Source of the DNA: a virus
Direction: 5' to 3' (one strand)
DNA: 21,200 nt
IMG/VR virus record: IMGVR_UViG_3300045977_000350
Coordinates: 1 to 21,200 of that record
Positions 5,647 to 20,974 of this stretch are shown piece by piece. A program made the position numbers and the translations under genes. The notes below the pieces were generated by a model. It made no database searches. It was not told the DNA's origin and worked only from the letters and a program-made list of their open reading frames with translations. Positions within the stretch are counted from its first letter, which is position 1, and each line of letters begins with the position of its first letter.

Positions 5647-6124
5647 AATCCGGCCCGCCGAGCCGCGGGACGTGCCGGCGCTCGTGCGCCTGTTTGGCAT
5701 GTACTTCGCCGCGACCAGGTGGGGCGACTTCCTCAGCTATGACGAAAAGCGAGCCGCCCCGCGGCTGCTCCAGCTGATATCGCAAAAGTACACGCCGCAC
5801 CTGGTGGCCTACGATCGCGACGAGCTCGTCGGTATCATGTCGTGGCACTACGACATCCAGTACACCAATGAGCCGATCGGCGTGCTCGATGAGGTGTTTG
5901 TGATGCCGGCGTATCGGCGCACCGACCTGGGCCGCAAGCTGGTCGCGCTCGCGCTGCACATCGCCGCCAAGCACGGTGCCGCGGTGTTCAACTTCCCGAT
6001 CGCTTCAGGCCTGCCTGAGACGAAGACTTTAGCCAACATGCTTCGCCACAAATTTGGTGGCGTTTACTGCGGCGTAATCGTGCGCTGCGTGCCACAGGAG
6101 GCTCCCTATGGGCGGCAAGAGTGA
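5594..6124 (+). CDS. GNAT-family N-acetyltransferase in the virion gene cluster
   Basis: A 176-residue protein with a GNAT fold starting near residue 17 (IEIRPAEPRDVPALVRLFGMYF). The acetyl-CoA-binding motif A is visible as LDEVFVMPAYRRTDLGRKLV at about residues 97-116, with a slightly degenerate R-R-T-D-L-G-R loop in place of the usual Q/R-x-x-G-x-G/A. It would transfer an acetyl group from acetyl-CoA to an amine, but the substrate is unknown. The ATG at 5594 overlaps the gp13-like gene by 53 bases and has no clear ribosome binding site, so it probably depends on coupling. The stop overlaps the next gene by 17 bases. Acetyltransferase genes are often found among podovirus structural genes. 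Whether the enzyme is packaged or acts on virion or host proteins cannot be told. Confidence 0.75.
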   Translation: MNIALRPTRRTTSTSHIEIRPAEPRDVPALVRLFGMYFAATRWGDFLSYDEKRAAPRLLQLISQKYTPHLVAYDRDELVGIMSWHYDIQYTNEPIGVLDEVFVMPAYRRTDLGRKLVALALHIAAKHGAAVFNFPIASGLPETKTLANMLRHKFGGVYCGVIVRCVPQEAPYGRQE

Positions 6125-6488
6125 CGACAGCGGCAGCAACGATCAGCAGATGAGCAATTTTCGCCAGGAGCAAATGCTGGCGCAGCAAGCGGCTTCACAG
6201 GTGAAGCAGAAGGAAGCGGCCGATGAGCCGGTGAAAGAACCAAAGAAGGGTGAGCAGGTCACTGAAGCGCCGATGCAGCAAAAGCCTGCCGAGGAGGTGG
6301 TGCCTGGTGCTGAGAACCTCACCGGGCTCGGCGACGAGCTCGTCGGTGGCTTGTCACCTGGGCGCGAGCAGCAGGTCAAAGATCAGCAAGGCCGGCTGAC
6401 CTCTACACCACAGGACTACGGTGTCGGCTTTGATCCGTACACCGGCCGATATGCCGGCCAGGGTCCGTACACCGGAGGGCAAGTGTGA
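6108..6488 (+). CDS. MGGK-series protein A, unknown virion-cluster protein
   Basis: A 126-residue hydrophilic protein with a good GGAGG ribosome binding site, starting inside the end of the GNAT gene. I do not recognise a domain. Visible features are an N-terminal MGGKSDDSGSNDQQ, a Gln/Glu/Lys-rich helical middle (EQMLAQQAASQVKQKEAADE) and a conserved-looking NLTGLGDELVGGLSPG at about residues 70-85. The C-terminus is GFDPYTGRYAGQGPYTGGQV, which contains the PYTG unit twice. The next protein repeats both the MGGK start and the NLxGLGDxLVGG block, so the two are likely tandem paralogues. The position, before the gp14-like gene, suggests a small virion or assembly protein. The composition suggests it is largely disordered. 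Function unknown. Confidence 0.65.
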   Translation: MGGKSDDSGSNDQQMSNFRQEQMLAQQAASQVKQKEAADEPVKEPKKGEQVTEAPMQQKPAEEVVPGAENLTGLGDELVGGLSPGREQQVKDQQGRLTSTPQDYGVGFDPYTGRYAGQGPYTGGQV

Positions 6489-6841
6489 TGGGCGGCAAGG
6501 GCGGCGACAGCGGGCCGAGCCCGATGCAGCAGACCTACGACACGGGCTCACCCTCGACTACGGGCGGATGGACCTATCTGGACGGCACCACCAACAAACC
6601 AAAAACCGCAACGCCGAAAAAGGAAGAGCCGAAACAAACACCGATCGTTGAGGATCCGAGCAAGGCCGGCGCCGAGACGGTCGCGCAGGATCCAGAGACG
6701 CAGCCATACGCGCCGCCTGGGTGGGGCAACTATCCGAGCTCGGGCACCAACCTCTCGGGGCTCGGTGACGTGCTGGTTGGCGGCATGGCCGAGCCTGGTA
6801 AGGCTGGACCAAAAGCGCAGAACTACTTCGGCCAGGTGTAG
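6488..6841 (+). CDS. MGGK-series protein B, paralogue of the preceding protein
   Basis: A 117-residue protein. The ATG at 6488 sits in a TGATG overlap with the previous stop, 7 bases behind GGAGGG. The GTG one codon earlier is less likely. It starts MGGKGGDSGPSP and carries NLSGLGDVLVGGMAEPG near residues 84-100, which parallels protein A (NLTGLGDELVGGLSPG). Between them is a Pro/Lys/Glu-rich linker (TPKKEEPKQTPIVEDPSKAG). The first 12 bases of the two genes are identical. It ends AQNYFGQV, again a Gly-Gln-Val C-terminus as in protein A (GGQV). No enzyme motif is present. It is most simply read as a duplicated, diverged small virion-cluster protein. Confidence 0.65.
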   Translation: MGGKGGDSGPSPMQQTYDTGSPSTTGGWTYLDGTTNKPKTATPKKEEPKQTPIVEDPSKAGAETVAQDPETQPYAPPGWGNYPSSGTNLSGLGDVLVGGMAEPGKAGPKAQNYFGQV

Positions 6842-6850
6842 GAGGCCTCG

Positions 6851-7852
6851 ATGGGCGGCAAAGGCGCGCAACCGCAAAACAACCAGATGGTCCAGTTTGA
6901 AATGGAGCAGGCTGCGAAGGCCGAGCGGAAAGAGAACGAGCGCAAGGCTCGCCTCGAGCAAGGCATGAAGAACATCGGCGAGATTTTCCACGGCAAGGAA
7001 AAGACCGCGCCGCAGAAGGTGAAGTTTGATCCTGGATCGTTCACGCCTGGTGGTGCTGGTGGAGGCAGCACCGCGATGAGCATCGATTTTGGCGGCCCTC
7101 TTCCGGTGTCGGCCACCGATGCGCAGAACATCGGCGACAGCGGTTGGACGTATCGCGGCGTGACGGCCACCGCTGGACCGTTTGCCGGCAAGAGCGGCTA
7201 TGCGGTCTACGATCCGACAGGAGCTCAGCGCGGAGCCGGCCAGACTTGGGCAGATGCAACGCAGGGGCTCACCGGCCTCGAGTATGACAAAGACGTTGGC
7301 ACCGGCGAGTTTGAGGCGGATCCGTTTGCGCCGGTCAAAGACAAATACAAATCGCACCTCACCGATCTGCACACTTCAAACCTATCGGGCACCTACAACA
7401 AGGCGCTCGATGAAGCGATCTTTGCGACCGCTCGCGCAGGTCAACGCGGCAGTACGACCGCAGGCGACATCCTCACCGACATCGGCGGCCGCCGTCTCGA
7501 GAACGGAAGGTGGGTCAACTACGGACAATACGGCGAGGCGAAAAACAAGATAACCAGCGACATCGACAAATCGCTCGCCGACCTCAACACGCAAATTCAA
7601 AGCGCGGAGGACAGCGCCGAGCAGCAGCTGTACATGACCGAGGATCCTGAGAAGGCGGCGACGGCGGCGCGCACGCTCGCCGGCAACATCCCAGCTGTGC
7701 CGCAGTACAATTCATTGGGCGACCTCTTCAAACCTCTGGTGATCGGCGCCACCGGTTTCTACAGCGGCTACCAAGGGCAGAGTGATTTCAACAAAGCGTT
7801 CGCAACACCGAAATCGCCGCTCGGTTCTGGCTCGGGCCAGGTGACGAGGTAA
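6851..7852 (+). CDS. MGGK-series protein C, probable virion protein
   Basis: A 333-residue protein behind a strong AGGAGG, with its start 9 bases after protein B. It opens MGGKGAQPQNN, so it shares the MGGK start with A and B, but then continues into a charged coiled-coil-like helix (about residues 15-45, EMEQAAKAERKENERKARLE). A Gly/Ser-rich and beta-like middle follows (FTPGGAGGGS; DAQNIGDSGWTYRGVTATAG). The C-terminal half is helical with DLNTQIQSAEDSAEQQLYMTEDPEKAA. The last 50 residues are Gly/aromatic-rich (LGDLFKPLVIGATGFYSGYQ). I do not recognise a family. It lies directly before the gp14-like gene, so a role in the internal core or tail is likely by position only. Confidence 0.65.
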   Translation: MGGKGAQPQNNQMVQFEMEQAAKAERKENERKARLEQGMKNIGEIFHGKEKTAPQKVKFDPGSFTPGGAGGGSTAMSIDFGGPLPVSATDAQNIGDSGWTYRGVTATAGPFAGKSGYAVYDPTGAQRGAGQTWADATQGLTGLEYDKDVGTGEFEADPFAPVKDKYKSHLTDLHTSNLSGTYNKALDEAIFATARAGQRGSTTAGDILTDIGGRRLENGRWVNYGQYGEAKNKITSDIDKSLADLNTQIQSAEDSAEQQLYMTEDPEKAATAARTLAGNIPAVPQYNSLGDLFKPLVIGATGFYSGYQGQSDFNKAFATPKSPLGSGSGQVTR

Positions 7853-15129: not shown

Positions 15130-15900
15130 TCAGGCTGCGATCGCGAGCTCGGTGGCCTCCGCGACGATCTGGGTCAGGCTCTTGCGGCTCATGTGCATGG
15201 TGTAGCCGGTGCGCTCTTCCATCGCGACGAACTGGGCGAAGAGCTCGGGGCGGGCCGCGGCGCCGCGCGCGATGTCGCCCTTGCTGCCCATGATGCAGAA
15301 CACGCAGGACAGGCGCTCGTTGCCGGCGGCGTATGCGGGGTGCGGCTCCTGGCCGGCGCCGGCGATCGTGGCGAACACCTCAGCGGTGGTCAGGGTGAAG
15401 ATCGGGCACCACTCGTACCAGGTGCGGCCGGCCTTGCTGTTGCGTGCGCTCAGCTTGAAGGGGTTCAGCTTGGAGCGCGAGGCGCTCTCCGCGGCGCGCA
15501 CGCCGGTGCAGGACACGATCACCTTGATGCCGCGCGCGGCGGCGTAGCGGCGAACCTCACGGTCGATCGGATCGCGCTTCAGGTCGGAGGTGCACTGACG
15601 GTGTGCGCTCGACGGGAAGGACGGGACATCGGGGCGGGCGGCGAAGCGGCGCTCGACCATGTCGAGGAAGGTCTTCTGCGCGCGGGCGACGATGAAGGGC
15701 ACGCCGGCGTCAGCTGCCTGCTGCTGTGCGAGCTCGAGGGCACCGTGCCACTCCATCTCGCCGAGCGAGGCGTGCACGACCAGGATCTGCGAGGCGGGGA
15801 CCGTCTCGAGCAGCTTGATCATCATGGCCTGGCTGTCCTTGCCGCCAGAGTGATTGATGATGAAGAGGGCGCCCTGGGCGACGAGGTCTTGGGTGTTCAT
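15130..15900 (-). CDS. PP-loop ATPase of the PAPS-reductase-like family
   Basis: A 256-residue protein. The start at 15900 has AGGAG nine bases upstream and is preferred over an in-frame start at 15930. The PP-loop SGGKDS is at residues 18-23 and binds ATP. A second family signature, GVRAAESASR, is at 133-142. Cysteines at 103 (RQCTSDLK), 131, 165 (WCPIF) and a CVFC pair at 199-202 could hold an iron-sulphur cluster or act in sulphur transfer. The C-terminal KRTxECGLH motif of true assimilatory CysH is absent, so sulphate assimilation is unlikely. Relatives include DndC of DNA phosphorothioation and many unassigned phage proteins. The gene has its own promoter and terminator and stands apart from both operons, as accessory (moron) genes do. 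Substrate unknown. Confidence 0.8.
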   Translation of the reverse strand: MNTQDLVAQGALFIINHSGGKDSQAMMIKLLETVPASQILVVHASLGEMEWHGALELAQQQAADAGVPFIVARAQKTFLDMVERRFAARPDVPSFPSSAHRQCTSDLKRDPIDREVRRYAAARGIKVIVSCTGVRAAESASRSKLNPFKLSARNSKAGRTWYEWCPIFTLTTAEVFATIAGAGQEPHPAYAAGNERLSCVFCIMGSKGDIARGAAARPELFAQFVAMEERTGYTMHMSRKSLTQIVAEATELAIAA

Positions 15901-15939
15901 GTCGGTTAGCTCCTGACCGGTGACCACCACCGGCCTCAG

Positions 15940-18995: not shown

Positions 18996-19945
18996 GGCGC
19001 GGGATCCTTCGGCTTCATCGGCGCGGTGTGCAGCGTCATCGCGTTCTCGAGCATGCGGAACATCTTCGGCTCCTGCTCGGTGAGGAGCGCGATCGTGTCG
19101 TAGTTGGTGCTCGCCCAGAGCTCGGCGACCTGGAGTGTCTTGGAGGTGCGATAGAGCGCGATGAACTTGGCACACCAGTCGCGCCAGGCCTGCGTCGCGT
19201 CGGCGCCGGCGTCAGGCTTCTCGAGCTCGTAGGGCACCTTGGCCTCGACCGGCGCCGGCGGCTTGATTTCGGGCGGGGGCGCCTTCGGCTTCGGCGCCTC
19301 GATCGGACGCGCGTTCAGATCCTTGCGCGTCTGCTCATCGTATTCGGCCCTGGTGGCGTACACGCCGACTTGCTTCGGCGTGACATCGATCATGTCGGGC
19401 TCATCGTCAAACAGGAGGCCGAGCAGCGCCTCAGGTTGATGGCGCCGGCCCCAGATGCGTGCGCCGGCATAGGCGAGCATCTGGTCGGGCTGCTTGTCCC
19501 ATTGCGAGTTCTGGGTTCTGACATCGCCGACGCTCACCGAGATGGTGCGCGGCTGTGCCTCGTTGGTGAGCCTGGCGGTGACCGTGACAGTGCGCTTGTC
19601 GCCGGCCTCGCCGCTGTACTCGTAGGTGAGGCGATCGGCGAGGAAGCCCGAACTATTGAGGATGGCGGCCGCAAGCTTGCCAGAGAACCCGACCTTGCCG
19701 CTGACCACGTAGCACTCGCCGATCGTCATAAAGAAATCGAGCTTCAGCCGCTCGATCGTGTAGCTGACCAGGAAGATATCGGCCGGCGATTTCTGAAACG
19801 CCGGCGGCACCAGGCGCGCGGTGGCGAGCTCGCGGCACAGCTGCATGCGCTGCAGCGGATCGCCAGGCCAGGGCATGACCTGTTGTTGCTGGATCGGTGG
19901 CGCCTGCACAGCGGGCAGCGCGATAGCGGTGGCGGCTTCGGTCAT
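18992..19945 (-). CDS. recT: RecT-family single-strand annealing protein
   Basis: A 317-residue recombinase that would anneal complementary single strands made by the exonuclease. The RecT core covers about residues 35-190: IFLVSYTIERLKLDFFMTIG, VGFSGKLAAAILNSSGFL, then KRTVTVTARLTNEAQPRTIS. The closing WDKQPDQMLAYAGARIWGRR, followed by HQPEALLGLLFDDE, is the family's 'kp..ml.yraar.w.Rr..pe.L.G......E'. The rest is a Pro/Lys-rich linker (IEAPKPKAPPPEIKPPAPVE) and a small helical C-terminus (AWRDWCAKFIALYRTSKTLQ), probably a partner-binding tail. The ATG at 19945 has GAGGGA upstream. It follows the YqaJ exonuclease gene in the same operon, after an unusual structured leader. Confidence 0.85.
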   Translation of the reverse strand: MTEAATAIALPAVQAPPIQQQQVMPWPGDPLQRMQLCRELATARLVPPAFQKSPADIFLVSYTIERLKLDFFMTIGECYVVSGKVGFSGKLAAAILNSSGFLADRLTYEYSGEAGDKRTVTVTARLTNEAQPRTISVSVGDVRTQNSQWDKQPDQMLAYAGARIWGRRHQPEALLGLLFDDEPDMIDVTPKQVGVYATRAEYDEQTRKDLNARPIEAPKPKAPPPEIKPPAPVEAKVPYELEKPDAGADATQAWRDWCAKFIALYRTSKTLQVAELWASTNYDTIALLTEQEPKMFRMLENAMTLHTAPMKPKDPAP

Positions 19946-19972
19946 GGGTTCCCTCGTTGTTGTTCATCAGCC

Positions 19973-19996
19973 ACCACCCGCCTGGTGCCGGGTGGT
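19973..19996 (-). promoter_or_regulatory. Hairpin just upstream of the recT ribosome binding site
   Basis: A perfect 8-bp stem, ACCACCCG / CGGGTGGT, with an 8-nt loop ends 28 bases before the recT ATG. On the minus strand no U-run follows, so it is not a terminator. It could affect ribosome access or be a protein-binding site for translational control of recT. Confidence 0.5.
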
Positions 19997-20007
19997 TGAA
20001 CAGCATG

Positions 20008-20096
20008 GGAACCCAAGGGGTAAGCATGCCCCTGCCTATTTCCCCGAAGGGTATTTTATTCGGCAGGCCACCCGACAAGGGTAGCCCTTGGGTTCC
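20008..20096 (-). ncRNA. Nested structured RNA leader between YqaJ and recT
   Basis: A 12-bp perfect inverted repeat, GGAACCCAAGGG (20008-20019) and CCCTTGGGTTCC (20085-20096), encloses a second stem CCTGCC / GGCAGG (20031-20036, 20062-20067), and that encloses CCC-UUCG-GGG on the minus strand (20051-20042). A competing 6-bp hairpin, CAAGGG-CTA-CCCTTG in minus-strand reading, uses the same 5' arm. Together these look like an RNA that can switch between two folds in the recT leader. I see no match to a riboswitch class I know. The frame here is open but does not look coding. Confidence 0.5.
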
Positions 20097-20156
20097 AGAG
20101 AAACCGCGCCGACCGTGTTCAAGCAGGCAGTGCGGTTGTCAGGTTAGCCTTAGTGG

Positions 20157-20186
20157 TCACGCGGAGTCGATCTGTTCTGCCGTCAT
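20157..20186 (-). CDS. Possible nine-codon mini-ORF after the exonuclease gene
   Basis: The exonuclease stop lies in CTATGACGG, giving an ATGA overlap with a nine-codon frame reading M-T-A-E-Q-I-D-S-A before TGA. A purine-rich AAGGGAG precedes it, but the spacing is only two to five bases. It could be a leader peptide ahead of the structured region, the remains of a lost gene, or chance. Little can be claimed. Confidence 0.2.
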   Translation of the reverse strand: MTAEQIDSA

Positions 20187-20974
20187 AGCTCCCTTGTGGT
20201 GGTGGTGATTGCACCGTTTCTGGAGCGCTTCACGGTCGTGTCACCGTAGAGGATGGTGCCGACATCGTTGGGCACGAGGCCCTTGATGATTTTCTTGCTC
20301 GCCTCGTGTGCCTTGGCGGCGCGGTGCGTCTCGCCGAAGACACGCATGTTGTCGATCATCTCGGGGCCCCAGTTTGGGAGCGGGCTGACCTTCGCCAGGT
20401 CGATCGTCTTCCAGAGCTCGGGCGGCACCAGCGGCGGCTTCTCAAACGGTGGCCGCATGAGCTCGACGCACAGCTGGAACGCAGCGATGCGCTCCCACAC
20501 GGTGCGCTCGTAGGCTTCGTCTACGAGCACCTCGAGCTCGGTGAGGTCATCGGGCCCGAGCACGGCCAGGATCCCGCGCTCGACACCGCGGCAGCGCATC
20601 TGCACCAGCACCTGGGGCGTGTAGCGTTTGAGGGCGTCATCTAGCTTGCCGCCCCAGTTCTTCGCCTCGACGACTGCTTGATCAAACTCCCTGAAGCCAT
20701 CGAGCGTGCAGCTGATTGAGGGGAGCGTCGGGTGCTCGAGATAGCGTTGCCGCTCAGTGATGATGTGGCCGGTCACCTTCTCGAGCCACATGAGCGTGAA
20801 CGGCTCATCGTGCTTGCCGCGTTGGACGGCCAGGTTGTTGGAAAAATCTTTCGGCGGTCGCTGACCGGTGCGCTCTTCCCAGAGCTCGTACAGCTGTTCG
20901 CCGGTGCCGTTGACGATGATCGGCGCCTGGGACGCGGTGGTCTTGAACTCGCGCAGAGGGGAGAGGTCGGACAT
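20183..20974 (-). CDS. YqaJ-family phage exonuclease (lambda-Exo-like)
   Basis: A 263-residue nuclease that would chew one strand of double-stranded DNA ends to give RecT its substrate. The PD-(D/E)XK core is visible: Glu57 (GKHDEPFTLMWLEK), Asp92 (SCTLDGF), Glu103-x-Lys105 (VVEAKNW) and Gln121 (YTPQVLVQMRCRG), in the order and spacing of the YqaJ family. The C-terminal region (about 165-263) is helical with many Pro and Lys. The ATG at 20974 has GGAGG nine bases upstream. It is the first gene of the leftward operon in this window, directly behind the promoter at 21046-21074, and pairs functionally with recT downstream. Confidence 0.85.
   Translation of the reverse strand: MSDLSPLREFKTTASQAPIIVNGTGEQLYELWEERTGQRPPKDFSNNLAVQRGKHDEPFTLMWLEKVTGHIITERQRYLEHPTLPSISCTLDGFREFDQAVVEAKNWGGKLDDALKRYTPQVLVQMRCRGVERGILAVLGPDDLTELEVLVDEAYERTVWERIAAFQLCVELMRPPFEKPPLVPPELWKTIDLAKVSPLPNWGPEMIDNMRVFGETHRAAKAHEASKKIIKGLVPNDVGTILYGDTTVKRSRNGAITTTTREL

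Follow-up and report, generated by a model that had tools for sequence, protein, structure and literature searches.

At a probability of roughly 70%, the leader that separates an exonuclease gene from recT in a virus record controls recT translation and is an antisense/leader RNA of the C4 type, belonging to the RF02221 (sRNA-Xcc1-like) class. By its sequence, it combines helices P1, P2, and P3 and a conserved core with two segments, a' and b', that are complementary to the b2-a2 stretch holding the recT SD, and with a b1-a1 copy upstream. The structure is real and conserved; from it, we infer function and switching.

Locus and features of the leader

The window, meaning the whole 21.2-kb virus record analysed, has the exonuclease gene (exo, YqaJ) on its minus strand and, 237 nt away on the same strand, recT; hence, the relevant RNA is the reverse complement. 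The first-pass annotation had placed nested stems between these two genes, and this location is borne out on the coding (minus) strand. In the direction of transcription, the features are as follows:

20183-20974, minus: exonuclease gene (YqaJ-like), 5' of the RNA (Pfam YqaJ, 3.6e-8)
20116-20122, minus: b1, TTGAACA, upstream copy, 7 bp complementary to b'; also present 5' of the element in a second phage, L146
20085-20096, minus: a1, GGAACCCAAGGG, upstream copy of the recT SD region and 5' arm of the outer stem (12 bp with a')
20076-20090, minus: local hairpin CAAGGG/CCCUUG, competing for part of a1
20068-20077, minus: helix P1, 5' strand, UGUCGGGUGG (cmscan RF02221, model R1)
20062-20067, minus: P2, 5' strand (cmscan RF02221, L146 comparison)
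20037-20061, minus: conserved core GAAUAAAAUACCC-UUCG-GGGAAAUA, the P2 internal loop and tip
20031-20036, minus: P2, 3' strand (cmscan RF02221, L146 comparison)
20025-20030, minus: P3, 5' strand (cmscan RF02221, L146 comparison)
20007-20019, minus: a', P3 loop CCCUUGGGUUCCC, partner of a1 (12 bp) or of a2/recT SD (9 bp)
20001-20007, minus: P3, 3' strand (cmscan RF02221)
19996-20002, minus: b', UGUUCAA, between P3 and helix P1, partner of b1 (7 bp) or b2 (6 bp)
19986-19995, minus: helix P1, 3' strand, CCACCCGGCA (cmscan RF02221, model R1)
19974-19980, minus: CGGGUGG, alternative partner (local hairpin) of the helix P1 3' strand (inverted repeat I10)
19961-19966, minus: b2, UGAACA
19945-19953, minus: a2, GGGAACCCA, overlapping the recT SD (GAGGGA) and the A of the start codon
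18992-19945, minus: recT, presumed target (Pfam RecT, 1.5e-7)

In the analysis of the window, a' is CCCTTGGGTTCCC, and a2 is also written GGGAACCC(A), the A being the start-codon base. The outer-stem 5' arm and the recT SD region have in common the direct repeat D5, GGAACCCA, and both contain GGAACCC. The 3' strand of helix P1 and CGGGUGG (19974-19995, minus) make up a further alternative hairpin before recT, which is partly kept in L146.

Match to the sRNA-Xcc1 family

Run with permissive thresholds on 19900-20250, cmscan returns RF02221 (sRNA-Xcc1) as the sole family, on the minus strand at 20076-19979 (46.6 bits, E 2.3e-7). The match is full length (model positions 1-87 of 87), with helices P1, P2, and P3 and the core all present, and the tip letters AAUAAAAUACCC-UUCG-GGGAAAUA are those conserved in RF02221. 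As the gathering cut-off of the family is 53 bits, which the 46.6 bits of the window element do not reach, the element is called RF02221-like and not a member; at the gathering threshold, Rfam has no match in the window. Model R1, which draws on 47 relatives and includes neither the window nor P3, also finds the element (34.6 bits, E 2e-5 in 86.5 kb). The earlier statement that no described phage RNA resembles this one is not supported: the element is RF02221-like, with the plan of the phage P1 C4 antisense RNA, and the Rfam search that had been proposed leads to a known kind of RNA, albeit below the curated cut-off.

The window element shares with sRNA-Xcc1 the P1-P2-P3 arrangement, the AAUA(N)AAUACCC/GGGRAAUA core, and the orientation to the downstream gene, and differs in its longer P3 loop, in an a1 adjoining helix P1, and in having recT as its target. 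In the accessible parts of the literature, sRNA-Xcc1 is treated as a trans-acting or virulence-linked sRNA and not as an SD-pairing leader. The leader was examined for a promoter or a terminator, and neither was found; a simple intrinsic terminator was considered and rejected, and tRNA or tmRNA identity was considered and rejected as well.

Extent of the element

Three stems (12 bp outer, 6 bp inner, and a UUCG tip) and a competing 6-bp hairpin had been described at 20008-20096, and all are present there. On the minus strand, the outer stem pairs 20085-20096 with 20008-20019 (12 bp) and the inner stem pairs 20062-20067 with 20031-20036 (6 bp), the tip being ACCC-UUCG-GGG; the local hairpin pairs 20085-20090 with 20076-20081 (6 bp) and has its 5' arm in common with the outer stem. 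The fold of this interval reaches -43.5 kcal/mol (z -3.28), with 0 of 200 dinucleotide shuffles equally stable. As the bounds of the element, the interval is too narrow, since the element extends over about 19945-20122. The conserved closing helix is P1, which pairs 20068-20077 with 19986-19995 and has its 3' arm beyond the described interval; thus, helix P1 and the outer stem cross, and the latter is not the conserved closing helix.

Complementarity across the family

A scan of viral contigs for the tip pattern gave at least 120 stretches, 80 of them listed, and a stricter pattern keeps at least 44 elements among the matches listed, window included. A helix-P1-linked pattern (35 stretches) and a scan of genome contigs (22 stretches) added further loci; 79 elements have helix P1, 7 of them without a start. 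The discovery set takes the 63 elements with a start 65-130 nt after the core, reduced to 50 by dereplication; L146, L061, L130, and L157 lie outside this distance and so are not in it. Alignment A3 contains 47 of the 50 loci (the window, L128, and L081 are left out). In 47 relatives, the core is near invariant, and helices P1 and P2 covary (91.6% paired versus 77.7% when shuffled; score 0.408 versus 0.166; 0/500).

The family follows a rule in which the P3 loop (a') and the stretch from P3 to helix P1 (b') are complementary, in nested order, to a2 (the SD region) and b2, as exemplified by L103 (CCUUUAUG/CAUAAAGG) and L024 (UCCUUUAA/UUAAAGGA). This complementarity is kept across loci while the sequences change. 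In the discovery set (n = 50), the P3 loop plus J pairs with the 45 nt before its own start at a mean of -17.9 kcal/mol, as against -12.5 kcal/mol for swapped partners (0/20000 permutations); the corresponding values in a second set (n = 43), which was assembled by searching with Rfam and does not sample genomes at random, are -17.4 and -13.8 kcal/mol (0/20000). That set uses 55 of 65 rows, two from L257 being left out because they overlap and eight others because they are weak or doubtful; 5 of the 55 also belong to the discovery set, and 6 are without a start. For the upstream copies, the values are -22.7 versus -17.8 (n = 56) and -24.7 versus -18.5 (n = 42), with 0/20000 in both. Start codons were picked by an SD-favouring script, and the target stretch is therefore SD-rich in all rows, a bias that is the same in the swap control as in the own pairs. 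In no more than 12 of 50 loci does the own partner outrank every other, because some targets are generally sticky; a longest perfect helix of at least 7 is found in 42 of 50 own pairs versus 8.6% of swapped pairs.

The window carries the whole plan—a1, b1, a', b', a2, and b2—with recT as the target. Among 5000 dinucleotide shuffles of the a'/b' stretch, the nested double pattern (8 or more and 6 or more bp) is reproduced on the downstream side in 8, on the upstream side in 53, and on both sides in 1. By energy, the a'-SD duplex is not unusual, since shuffling this GC-rich stretch does as well in 2473 of 3000 cases, and hence, the rank of 0 held by the window in the swap test owes something to composition; energy by itself does not discriminate in this leader, which counts against any claim that relies on it. 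The length of its longest helix (9 bp) is unusual and is reached by 52 of 3000 shuffles.

A terminator-like hairpin follows the upstream copy in 57 of 78 relatives versus a mean of 6.1 in shuffles, a control that shuffles two-base blocks (not exact dinucleotides) under a rule that misses A+T-rich hairpins, such as that of L104. This bears on a possible, if doubtful, alternative: a purely cis-acting, riboswitch-like leader in which binding of a metabolite or protein to the P2 core (AAUAMAAUACCC..GGGRAAUA) determines whether a' covers the SD, with no sRNA released. Such a leader would suit a core that is the most conserved part, far beyond the needs of base pairing, a target immediately 3' in most members, and a window a1 that sits beside helix P1 in cis with no terminator between. 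In most relatives, however, b1-a1 forms a separate short unit ending in the terminator-like hairpin counted above, as in the trans-acting C4 and IsrK, and the accessible text of PMC2996969 describes the Xanthomonas founder of sRNA-Xcc1 as a discrete RNA of 88 nt by RACE.

Comparison with C4 and IsrK

Part of the case for the C4-type reading comes from phage P1, whose record has the order a1, b1, C4, a2, b2, icd, ant1. C4 itself was reportedly studied by Citron and Schuster (1990). Its covariance consensus comprises helix P1, a P2 hairpin, a P3 hairpin, a spacer, and P1'. At b2, GTTAGTG lies opposite the P3 loop CACTAAC, and at a2, TTGACAG lies opposite the spacer CTGTCAA; phage P1 has a further copy of each target upstream. 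C4 (RF01695, phages P1 and P7), taken with c4-a1b1 (RF03163), and the window element therefore agree in their upstream b1/a1 copies and in an antisense RNA with two segments (the P3 loop and the P3-to-helix-P1 stretch) for two targets around the downstream ribosome-binding site. They differ in that C4 has a plain P2 hairpin and a longer helix P1, in the a/b naming of the segments, and in that C4 controls the icd-ant antirepressor operon, whereas the downstream gene in the window is recT. The C4 covariance model has no match to 19900-20250 at E up to 10. The working plan of C4 and RF02221-like elements is the same, although the Rfam models do not cross-match, and common descent is not implied.

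A further precedent concerns the antirepressor gene anrP. As far as the accessible text of PMC4825925 goes, experiments there show silent and active folds in a prophage leader of a comparable kind, and a short upstream RNA can raise anrP translation 139-fold in trans. IsrK of Gifsy-1 (RF01394), in the accessible descriptions, resembles the window in having two alternative leader structures, one of them translationally silent, with a short upstream RNA that can free the leader; it differs in being a separate terminated transcript, the window having no terminator between a1 and the element. The isrK covariance model matches neither the window leader nor 7 typical relatives.

A second exo-RNA-recT phage

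A near-identical element lies between exo and recT in L146 (IMG/VR contig 3300045284_000270), whose exo is 60% and recT 43% identical to those of the window. All 36 of 36 compared pairs are kept; in 3 of them, one from a1-a', one from P2, and one from P3, both bases differ. The compensating changes that the first-pass annotation had suggested looking for are thus present, as a two-sequence signal that is weak by itself, being matched by 54 of 500 shuffles. The recT start of L146 is farther downstream, and SD pairing is not established there.

These changes also count against a structure that acts at the DNA level, as a recombination or packaging site, or a functionless remnant of a C4-type module, both of which are improbable. 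The plus strand of 20008-20096 folds too (z -3.12), as is expected because of the inverted repeats, copies in this context are few, and there is no terminator; against this, the RF02221 covariance model fits the coding strand only, the changes relative to this divergent phage compensate in three helices, and a2 sits exactly on the SD.

The window and L146 are the only two exo-RNA-recT cases found. Single-protein queries with RecT and exo gave no relatives among viral contigs, and a two-row exo alignment used as query gave the L146 contig only. Distant RecT proteins occur in 70 of 50,697 phage records, BLASTN of the leader in phages yields only short matches in two records, and in one family, 43 of 295 genomes have exo homologues. 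At loci around more distant exo homologues, the element was found in 0 of 30 (29 plus L220), and Rfam on 16 was also empty. Complementarity of a1/b1 adjoining helix P1, like that of the window, recurs in L061, L130, and L157 (the last from a Sphingomonadaceae record), whose elements lie about 200 nt (start 192-212 nt away) before D12 adenine methyltransferase genes.

Two-state folding and a proposed switch

Calculated with energies that ignore pseudoknots, the nested folds reach -103.8 (SD closed), -99.5 (a1-a'), and -98.1 kcal/mol (P1/P2 helices). In the growing transcript, the probability of a1-a' is 0.78-0.87 until 19960 and 0.55 at 19950, and that of a'-a2 is 1.00 at 19944; in two-state folding, the SD is unpaired with a probability of 0.00 or 0.63. 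Folding of both states, likewise an early suggestion, thus gives the outer stem early and an SD-sequestering fold once the recT SD has been made. The original idea that the leader could adopt either of two folds stands insofar as this is a structured, potentially bistable recT leader, but the outer stem has its chief rival in the recT SD region and not in the local hairpin.

In the OFF state, ribosome entry would be blocked by the pairing of a' and b' with b2-a2. This pairing would act in cis, or else in trans should the RNA be processed to a stable species of about 90 nt. In the ON state, a1 (with b1) would capture a', forming the outer stem and leaving the SD free; the 5' arm would therefore act as an anti-antisense decoy, and the leader would be a switch with two stable states. 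Candidate triggers include exo transcription or ribosome traffic, processing, a second RNA copy, and a core-binding factor. An effect of the leader on the exo:recT ratio, as first proposed, is plausible.

For the family at large, the balance tips slightly towards sRNA-Xcc1 being a second widespread C4-type module with which phages silence antirepressors, SymE, and others, with the decoy here fused in cis and the module recruited to recT as a one-piece recombination switch. The proposed module would begin with a promoter, followed by the b1-a1 decoy RNA and a terminator, then by the structured antisense RNA, and last by b2-a2 on the SD.

Downstream genes

Antirepressors follow many of the RF02221-like relatives. 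The set of downstream proteins, A4, holds 65 of 71 (the window is left out, as are L146, L031, L063, L164, and L169 for doubtful starts), with Pfam matches to Bro-N (13), P22_AR_C (13), Rha (10), P22_AR_N (8), KilA-N (7), AntA (6), ORF6C (4), D12 methyltransferase (3), ORF6N (2), and a few others; as one protein can match more than one family, these counts are not additive. Among phage records, 'antirepressor' or 'ant' is annotated directly 3' of the element in Bordetella phage IFTN1, Aaphi23, and P27, and the Vibrio phage VPBES record has sRNA-Xcc1 annotated before a hypothetical protein. Targets are more diverse in the second set (genomes, 43 proteins), with SymE in 4, Rha in 2, and P22_AR_N, AntA, and Bro-N in 1 each, besides HTH and other families and many proteins without a family.

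RF02221 matches at E <=0.001 occur in 47 of 385, 4 of 18, and 22 of 321 sampled genomes, and matches above the cut-off in 7, 4, and 12 of these, respectively; a composite query matches 160 of 5426 E. coli genomes. Two small genomes (G103 and G299, 1.4-1.6 Mb) have 11 and 10 RF02221 matches, which suggests that these copies are a dispersed repeat family. At four loci (L259:411-608, L261:627-824, L280:1053-1247, and L285:1257-1454), SymE-type toxin genes lie just 3' of RF02221 elements whose P3 loops pair with the symE SD; judging from these pairings, control of symE without a SymR-like antisense gene is possible.

Place in the literature

sRNA-Xcc1 is said to be under HrpG/HrpX control (Chen et al. 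2011, going by the title). That report, the cloning of sRNA-Xcc1 as an 88-nt RNA, and later papers linking it, in their accessible parts, to virulence would suit a trans-acting 'virulence sRNA' with distant host targets and only an incidental place before recT, a reading that is most improbable, given that the P3 loop varies in step with the neighbouring gene's SD across the family, which distant targets do not predict. In the text available of each, PMC12444791 places sRNA-Xcc1 5' of symE in the most widespread Xanthomonas integron cassette, PMC12189769 lists C4, isrK, and sRNA-Xcc1 close together in Xylella with a virulence reading, and PMC8780938 counts 15 copies in Aeromonas salmonicida and suggests virulence; the literature also includes PMC11932112, PMC12370729, and PMC2864571, likewise in part. 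No literature joining Xcc1 with an antirepressor was found, and, by title and start of abstract, none links sRNA-Xcc1 to C4 or recT; as subscription journals are mostly outside this scope, priority is not certain.

If the C4-type reading is true, sRNA-Xcc1—counted as a virulence sRNA—would gain a concrete, testable role in phage gene control and be tied to the classical C4 system, and such a module would have been shown before a recombination gene. It would also help to explain the presence of sRNA-Xcc1 in prophages and beside symE, and the target of each copy would be predictable from its own sequence.

Elsewhere in the window, three successive open reading frames at 6108-7852 (plus) start with MGGK or MMGGKG and are possibly small paralogues or repeated modules, and a gene with a PAPS-reductase domain lies at 15130-15930 (minus), between the structural block and the integrase side.
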